DNA of 63,669 nt, taken from IMG/VR virus record IMGVR_UViG_3300042691_022190, positions 1-63,669 of that record; one strand, given 5' to 3'. Positions 30,529 through 39,740 of this stretch are shown in pieces. The notes beneath the pieces were generated by a model. That model made no database searches and was not told the origin of the DNA. It saw nothing but the letters and a program-made list of their open reading frames with translations. Each line of letters begins with the position of its first letter. Within the stretch, counting starts at the first letter, position 1. Source of the DNA: a virus. The position numbers were made by a program, and so were the translations under genes.

Positions 30529-30570
30529 GTCGCTAAAACGCCCGCTGGGTCTCTACCCCCCATGCGCGGT

Positions 30571-30990
30571 CCATGGGCCACGGGCCACGGGCCAGGCGCC
30601 CAGGGCAAATCCACCAGGGCGCGCGGATCACGGGCCACCAGCTGCGGGCCCTTGTTTGTAATCCCGGCCACCAGCTGCAGGCGATTACAAACACCAGGCA
30701 AACACCAGGGCGCGCAGCTCATTCGCAAATTAAGGTCCACGGCCCACGGCCTGGCGCGGGTTTGCGGGCGCAAGCTGCGCAGCTGAGCGGGTTTCACGGC
30801 CCACGGCCCAGGGCCGCAGCTCACGGCAGCTCACGACTCACCAGGGCGCGGGGGTTTGCGATATCGATCAAAGGGCCACGGGGCGCGGCCCACGGGCCCG
30901 GTTTGTATTACCCCCATGGTCGGCCAGGGCCTGGCGGGATAATGACCAGGGCGCCCAGGACGGGCCAGGGCTGGCGCTTACGATACGGCG
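30571..30990. repeat. GC-rich degenerate short repeats
   Basis: Heptamer-like words start in register at 30571 (CCATGGG, CCACGGG, CCACGGG, CCAGGCG, CCCAGGG) and then decay. CACGGCCCACGGCC recurs at 30738 and 30795 and again at 36569 near the candidate origin. The composition is far richer in G+C than the late genes. Confidence 0.6.
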
Positions 30991-36438: not shown

Positions 36439-36444
36439 TGTTCA

Positions 36445-36475
36445 GTGTAATGGCACTAATATACTTCCATTACAC
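36445..36475. promoter_or_regulatory. 9-bp inverted repeat, operator candidate
   Basis: GTGTAATGG and CCATTACAC are perfect complements separated by 13 bases. This is typical of a dimeric-repressor site between divergent units. Confidence 0.5.
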
Positions 36476-36479
36476 CTGT

Positions 36480-36610
36480 TTTTTGTCTGTCCCTGATCCG
36501 TGGTCCTCGCCCCCTTCTCCATCCTACGCGCCCTCCCCCGCCTTTTCCCCTCCTCCTCACCCCCTCCCCACGGCCCACGGCCCCCCTTTTTTCTCCCCAT
36601 TTAGACCCCT
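36480..36610 (+). other. Polypyrimidine tract
   Basis: The plus strand is dominated by C and T with long runs (CCCTCCCCCG, CCCCTCCTCCTCACCCCCTC). CCACGGCCCACGGCCC at 36568-36583 repeats words of the 30.6-kb region. Such strand bias can mark primer-RNA or unusual DNA structure sites. Confidence 0.6.
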
Positions 36611-38519: not shown

Positions 38520-38864
38520 CTACTTCTTTTCTTTCATCATGGCCCGGTTGGCGCGGAAAAGCTCGCCGGACAACTCGCCACACGTCTCGCTCGTGCCCCT
38601 TAAAAGCCTCTCCGCCAGGCACAAAAGGGTCGTGGTACGCGAAGAGCTGCTGTCAAAGCAGTCATCTGCGGCAACGGCCAAAAGCTCCTCGATCTCGGCC
38701 AAGCGGTTACAGATATCGTCCAAGTCGTTAGCGATAGTGTGAATGGACCGGGGGTCCGGGAAACCCTTATCTAGGTCCAACAAAATCTCATGCAGGGACT
38801 TGTCGGCCTTCTTAGCGGGCTTTTTGGTGGCCTTCTTGGCCGGCACTGATTTAGTAGCTTTCAT
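38520..38864 (-). CDS. Lys/Ala-rich-tailed small protein (114 aa)
   Basis: The N-terminus is basic and disordered (KSVPAKKATKKPAKKADKSL, histone-tail-like), followed by a helical domain with RSIHTIANDLDDICNRLAEI and SRTTTLLCLAERLLRG. No family was recognised. It converges with the Ntn-hydrolase gene with no gap (38519/38520) and its start overlaps the stop of the RAMP-like gene (38861-38864). It could bind DNA or RNA. Confidence 0.65.
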   Translation of the reverse strand: MKATKSVPAKKATKKPAKKADKSLHEILLDLDKGFPDPRSIHTIANDLDDICNRLAEIEELLAVAADDCFDSSSSRTTTLLCLAERLLRGTSETCGELSGELFRANRAMMKEKK

Positions 38865-39478
38865 GAGAGCACCTCAAAGTGTGTAATGTTATAACGTCCG
38901 TAAGTCGGGCGAAAATCGCCAACCCCAACCAGGCGCCCGGCAGTGTTCAGTACGTCTTGAAAAAGGAAGGGGTCGATATACTCAGGGGTGAGTATCTGAA
39001 ATTGTAGATCCACCTTCCATCCGATGCGCATGGCAGGTCGTGTTCGGTTGACCCCGGCTCGCTGTACTGTGACCCGACGAGTGTCAAGGTAGTCCCACTC
39101 ATCGCAACCAAGTGGCGCAAGCTGAGTAAGCGAAACGATCCCGGCTTTAAACAGATCCATCGCGGATTTACGCGGTGAGCGGGGGTCTTGCTTAAACTTT
39201 GCAGCATGGATGAGGGACTGGCGGAAGTATTCGCCTGGAATACAAAGCTCACCTTTCTCGTTCCTCCATATGTAGGACTCAATATCATCCTCCTTTTTCG
39301 CCTTGGAGTTCTTGGCCGCTTTGGACTTTGCCTCCACGGACTCGCAGTTCCATCTGTGAAAAAGAAGATCCGCTGCCCCCGTAGCGCGTAGCGCCACAGC
39401 ATACGGAAACCCCTGTTCAATGGCGGTCTTGCCACCATTGGTTACAGCACTTACAACCTTCAAATTGGACTTAGCCAT
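38861..39478 (-). CDS. RAMP/Cas7-like fold candidate
   Basis: This 205-aa protein starts MAKSNLKVVSAVTNGGKTAI. It contains ALRATGAADLLFHRWN, CIPGEYFRQSLIHAAKF and, near the C-terminus, YLDTRRVTVQRAGVNRTRPA, IGWKVDLQFQIL and AGRLVGVGDFRPTYGRYN. The order (first strand, 'IPG..(F/L)...L..AA', then 'aG..(V/I)G.GDFRP..GR(Y/F).(I/V)') is that of RAMP/Cas7-type RNA-binding proteins. No other CRISPR genes occur. It may bind RNA, or only share the fold. It starts directly downstream of the pentamer tract. Confidence 0.55.
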   Translation of the reverse strand: MAKSNLKVVSAVTNGGKTAIEQGFPYAVALRATGAADLLFHRWNCESVEAKSKAAKNSKAKKEDDIESYIWRNEKGELCIPGEYFRQSLIHAAKFKQDPRSPRKSAMDLFKAGIVSLTQLAPLGCDEWDYLDTRRVTVQRAGVNRTRPAMRIGWKVDLQFQILTPEYIDPFLFQDVLNTAGRLVGVGDFRPTYGRYNITHFEVLS

Positions 39479-39501
39479 TATTACTTTCTCCGTTATTAAA
39501 A

Positions 39502-39515
39502 TCCCCCGAGGGGGA
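39502..39515 (-). terminator. Terminator/attenuator before the RAMP-like gene
   Basis: TCCCC pairs with GGGGA around CGAG, followed on the minus strand by TTTTAATAA. It lies between the pentamer tract and the ribosome site at 39485-39490, so it may control read-through. Confidence 0.5.
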
Positions 39516-39740
39516 ACCACACCATGCCATATCACACCATGCCGGACCGTACCTCATCACGCCTGACCCCGGCTAGCCATGCCTGACCGTACTCTTAAAA
39601 CTTTTCCTAAGGGGCCTGTCACGCCCGATAAGAAAACCATACCATGCCCTACCTAACCTAAGCATGCCAAACCTCACCATGCCCTACCGCACCTTACCTG
39701 ACCATGCCTTATCTTGGCATGCCATGCCTCACCGCATACA
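39516..39740. repeat. Degenerate 5-base repeat tract (RCCNN)
   Basis: Read in steps of five from 39516, nearly every unit starts with a purine and has C at position 3 (ACCAT, GCCAT, ATCAC, ACCAT, GCCGG, ACCGT ...). Sixteen units reach 39595; a 40-base interruption (exactly eight units) keeps the phase; 21 more units run to 39740. CATGCC occurs nine times at spacings that are all multiples of five. On the transcribed minus strand GG falls every five bases. Confidence 0.85.

Follow-up and report, generated by a model that had tools for sequence, protein, structure and literature searches.

VIPR (Viral Interference Programmable Repeat) was described in a 2026 preprint as a CRISPR-like system, apparently turned by phages on their rivals, in which a protein, Vipr, is combined with vrRNAs made of alternating GGY and NN motifs (PMC13142463). 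For the published members, vrRNA expression, copurification with Vipr, a one-base skip rule, and silencing have all been demonstrated: the NN letters pair with DNA under a one-base skip, double-stranded DNA is bound, targets lie in competing phages, and the vrRNAs, ~100 nt long with 9–16 repeats, are trans-acting guides (PMC13142463). A VIPR locus further includes a conserved, structured 3' tail behind each repeat tract and an accessory gene, vap, and seven types are distinguished (PMC13142463). This RNA-guided DNA recognition with a gapped guide code is reported to be older than CRISPR (PMC13142463).

Here we analyze a stretch of 63,669 nucleotides from a virus record (IMGVR_UViG_3300042691_022190; the window) in which a five-base period lies beside a gene for a protein with a predicted RAMP fold. 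The tract almost certainly represents two vrRNAs of a VIPR system, situated in the leader of their own vipr gene and next to the protein that would use them as guides. The system is a divergent VIPR member of a kind already, if very recently, described.

Results

The five-base period is pronounced, with a mean autocorrelation at lags 5, 10, and 15 of 0.463 relative to 0.282 +/- 0.017 in dinucleotide shuffles (10.5 SD; none of 5000 shuffles reached the value), and the best 200-base segments for this period across the whole 63.7 kb are located at the tract. Counted from 39516, the tract comprises 45 five-base units, 37 of them outside an interruption at 39596-39635. These 37 all begin with a purine, with C at position 3 in 35 and at position 2 in 30, and one phase holds 29 of 37 CC dinucleotides. 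Nine copies of CATGCC (39523, 39538, 39578, 39643, 39663, 39678, 39703, 39718, and 39723) are spaced 15, 40, 65, 20, 15, 25, 15, and 5 bases apart. The unit counts, copies, and spacings given in an earlier note on this DNA were thereby reproduced, and its description of the tract as non-coding and distinct from an ordinary tandem repeat also holds. That note had specified in advance that a period no stronger than in shuffled controls, or missing from related phages, would speak against it; the excess was found and, because the period persists in related phages, the claim stands. Its statement that the 40-base interruption keeps phase is correct for the window, where this is probably due to chance since the corresponding inter-tract gap in close relatives, 52 bases in L004 and 34 in L002, is not a multiple of five. 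An Rfam scan returned no match.

Reading the minus strand gives the clearest motif, GGYNN, whose third base is a pyrimidine in 35 of 35 units; this is consistent with the ordered RNA carrying GG every five bases that the earlier note had proposed for this strand. The features of the locus, with predicted roles where named, are as follows.

39634..39733, minus strand: vrRNA A repeat tract, 20 GGYNN units, 17 with perfect GGY
39602..39638, minus strand: hairpin 3' of tract A (TTTTCTTATCGGGC / GCCCCTTAGGAAAA), fold -14.7 kcal/mol, overlapping the last unit of the tract
39514..39588, minus strand: vrRNA B repeat tract, 15 GGYNN units, 12 with perfect GGY
39492..39515, minus strand: short CCCCC/GGGGG hairpin and T-rich run immediately ahead of the ribosome-binding site of vipr
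38861..39478, minus strand: vipr, 205-aa RAMP (Cas7-like) protein, phrog_4652
38520..38864, minus strand: candidate vap, 114-aa protein overlapping the vipr stop, with a coupled counterpart in close relatives

Both tracts reside in the leader of vipr and on its strand, with 20 and 15 YNNGG units upstream of the gene. Tract A is longer than the published 9–16 repeats, and its 5' part (GGCATGCCAAGAYAAGGCATGGTCAGG), which is common to close relatives, may be a leader. A hairpin follows each tract: that at 39602..39638 is the probable 3' tail of vrRNA A, and the arms found in this position in relatives are spelled differently yet still paired. The hairpin and T-rich run at 39492..39515 are predicted to serve vrRNA B as a tail or terminator. 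The tail motif of Escherichia phage SUSP1 does not occur in the window. The candidate vap product has a lysine-, alanine-, and proline-rich, histone-H1-like N-terminus, gave nothing above cut-off in Pfam or PHROG, and shows no similarity to SUSP1 Vap1; the coupled lysine-rich ORF after vipr is conserved only within the close clade.

The protein encoded beside the tract was rightly regarded as RAMP-like in the earlier note. Its family profile matches PDB 36pp ('SUSP1 Vipr protein', 36pp_D) at E=1.3e-44; the window protein alone reaches E=1.5e-4. An AlphaFold model built from a 90-sequence alignment (pLDDT 91), which replaced an earlier model from 18 close sequences (pLDDT 71), matched type VII Cas7, Csm3, and gRAMP in Foldseek at E of 6e-8 to 1e-5, predicting a Cas7/Csm3-like RAMP fold. 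As in published Vipr, the RAMP homologue would combine an RRM core with a G-rich loop, and the GxGDxRPxxGRF loop region is conserved in the family. No Pfam family passed the curated cut-off for the window gene, and a set of nine diverse relatives was unmatched. Phrog_4652 is annotated as 'unknown function'; the members tested are Vipr homologues, making the name Vipr now available for it. The gene at OR003939.1 22429-23046 in phage DSL-LC04, annotated as a 'helix-turn-helix transcriptional regulator', likewise encodes a homologue of Vipr that shares 90% identity with the protein of the window.

As a positive control, our tract finder was applied to SUSP1, where it gave four tracts, one upstream and three downstream of vipr, in agreement with the number and layout of the four vrRNAs sequenced in PMC13142463. 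Like SUSP1 VIPR type II (PMC13142463; PDB 36pp; KT454805), the window carries a Vipr RAMP encoded by a phage, vrRNAs built of GGY/NN pentanucleotides in the orientation of vipr, and a small gene directly 3' of vipr. In contrast, its Vipr is only 23% identical, both of its vrRNAs are upstream of vipr, its tail hairpins differ, and its lysine-rich neighbour is unrelated to Vap1. Because the 36pp profile match, the GGY/NN tracts, and the SUSP1 control fit the preprint, we classify the window as a VIPR locus (PMC13142463), which supersedes the earlier note's remark that no described element of this kind was known. The class 1 CRISPR RAMPs (type VII Cas7, Csm3, gRAMP/Cas7-11) resemble the window protein in predicted fold and in the oligomerisation on guide RNA expected from it. 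Unlike them, the window encodes a single 205-aa RAMP and its guide is a repeat code with no contiguous spacer. Neither a CRISPR array nor the multi-gene cas operon of class 1 CRISPR-Cas was seen at the locus: no CRISPR-like array occurs among the tandem repeats identified in the window, and PHROG identified no cas gene among the neighbours of vipr, the matches being an HNH endonuclease and an HslV-type peptidase.

The window Vipr has 21 relatives in IMG/VR and one in an isolated phage, DSL-LC04, which has a gammaproteobacterial host; together with the viral source record, this accords with the reported occurrence of VIPR mainly in phages or proviruses. It belongs to a separate 19-member clade, apart from SUSP1 Vipr (support 0.998). 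Closest are DSL-LC04 (OR003939) and IMG/VR loci L003-L008 and L013, which share Vipr at 87-91% identity, a leader tract, the coupled lysine-rich gene, and, in most, the interior hairpin, and differ from the window in guide letters and unit numbers. A GGYNN tract is found in the leader of all relatives, even where the letters wholly differ, with the exception of L016, which has no tract upstream of its vipr homologue. In the 625 units that precede 22 vipr homologues, the consensus is GGY/NN, with C or T at position 3 in 94% and positions 4-5 open. Summed over comparisons between relatives, GG changes less (30/254 sites) than Y (39/127) or NN (65/255). GGY is conserved and NN hypervariable, as in VIPR, with a Y that varies yet mostly stays a pyrimidine. 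Where relatives differ by gaps inside a tract, most gap lengths are multiples of five, such as 5 or 10.

The association between tract and gene was approached from the repeat alone by searching IMG/VR with a pattern comprising only GGY/NN, with AT at two NN positions and no protein information, which retrieved at least 120 stretches. Among the matches listed, 91 of 120 tract-bearing stretches encode a Vipr-family homologue according to an HMM from the window protein family. Iteration of the HMM used these very stretches, which makes the count dependent on the model; the controls (0 matches in reversed sequence; 0 of 69 unrelated stretches fetched for other reasons) limit this concern without removing it. 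Tract and vipr homologue share a strand in 137 cases and lie on opposite strands in 9, and tracts occur family-wide upstream of vipr, downstream, or in multi-copy arrays; this bias and placement point to an RNA element. Two independent routes, the five-base period in raw sequence and the tract-only search, thus reach the same protein family, providing independent support for the preprint (PMC13142463).

A control scan with GGR replacing GGY yielded complex GGANN tracts in L145, L146, L149, L151, L154, L156, and L157, each with a Vipr homologue, and seven further matches that are simple repeats without vipr. L146 and L157 look like one sequence, and the GGANN loci come from no fewer than two or three distinct lineages of Vipr. 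Judging from these sequences, a GGA/NN version of the VIPR repeat code seems to exist; the preprint mentions 'a related consensus' (PMC13142463).

Searches for a DNA target of the window guides using one-skip (xNN)n patterns, four in IMG/VR and one in a genome collection, returned matches only at chance level. Seed matches of guide B converge on a single large, tail-like gene of big phages (isolates of ~160 kb; 10-11/16 units), a convergence that we judged to be chance; its remaining matches and all those of guide A are chance-like, and the genome-collection scan gave one match, in Roseobacter. When guides of the whole family were pooled, matches of at least 9/10 units numbered seven for one skip, none for skip 0, and one for skip 2; the five-base period confounds skip 3. 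A single L067 guide accounts for three of the seven matches, which lie in codon phase within vipr genes of other phages, and both this and the pooled one-skip excess are suggestive only. The L067 vrRNA (L067:3118-3268) directly follows its own vipr; under one skip and in codon phase it matches a conserved RPAxxAGW-coding stretch of the L125 and L087 vipr genes, and it mismatches its own vipr in three units, making it, on the basis of sequence, a possible candidate anti-VIPR guide. The exact pattern has no perfect match in IMG/VR.

Discussion

The tract, the protein family and its modeled fold, the association of the two, and the strand bias are results of the present analysis, and the identity of the tract can be weighed against three other readings. 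The tract could be a cis-acting leader in which Vipr, bound to GGY repeats of its own mRNA, represses translation or steers termination without any external target. The TRAP/trp leader provides a precedent, with protein-docking triplets (NAG repeats) about five bases apart in an mRNA leader, although the TRAP fold is unrelated to that of Vipr. In the window clade only a terminator-like hairpin separates the tract from the ribosome-binding site of vipr, and the failure of target scans to yield more than chance-level matches for the window guides fits such a role. Unlike the trp leader, however, VIPR tracts across the family also lie downstream of the gene and in arrays, positions in which a leader role fails; the NN letters drift apart where GG persists, and the published members act in trans (PMC13142463). 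We consider this reading unlikely, and cis-leader regulation could coexist with guide function.

A two-layer G-quadruplex, or another RNA that folds without protein, is suggested by the five-base recurrence of GG on the transcribed strand, as the earlier note had envisaged. The G-quadruplex option of ViennaRNA leaves the optimal fold of both tracts unchanged, and such a structure would account neither for the pyrimidine at position 3 nor for the link with one RAMP family, leaving it very improbable. A degenerating microsatellite, or another repeat acting at the level of DNA (iterons or a packaging site, for instance), could draw on the weak 15-base arrays that TRF reports within the tract. Two positions are free in each unit, yet phase and GGY are kept across divergent phages, and the true simple repeats of the GGR scan occur without vipr; the strand bias and gene association in particular disfavour this reading, which is the most improbable of all. 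Elsewhere in the window, 30560-30900 and 36440-36600 are G-rich repetitive minus-strand stretches containing repeated GGCCGTG / GGCCCGTG and GGGGAGG-like runs; they lack five-base phase and are not GGYNN tracts.

If the tract encodes VIPR guides, as is almost certain, the minus-strand transcript would be processed to a repeat tract with a hairpin tail, on which Vipr monomers would assemble with each GGY triplet as a docking site. Double-stranded DNA would be recognized through joint pairing of the NN dinucleotides in an (xNN)n pattern, silencing a gene that belongs to a competing phage or a satellite. For the window phage, we infer expression, processing, oligomeric assembly, and a target by analogy with the published members. 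More tentatively, the layout of this clade, with both guides in the vipr 5' leader and a histone-H1-like partner, may tie the making of guides, the synthesis of Vipr, and possibly autoregulation into one coupled event, within a family whose code may itself vary (GGA/NN in several Vipr lineages) and some of whose guides may target rival vipr genes. As a divergent clade with guides in the vipr leader, the window is useful for testing the VIPR code. In two other loci, L009:5670-5931 (two cassettes) and L010:5819-5930 (one), large inverted repeats, e.g. AAGGTTTYATTGGAAAAACT / GGTTTTTCCAATRARACTTT, surround GGYNN blocks, which suggests that guide cassettes are gained or lost as units.
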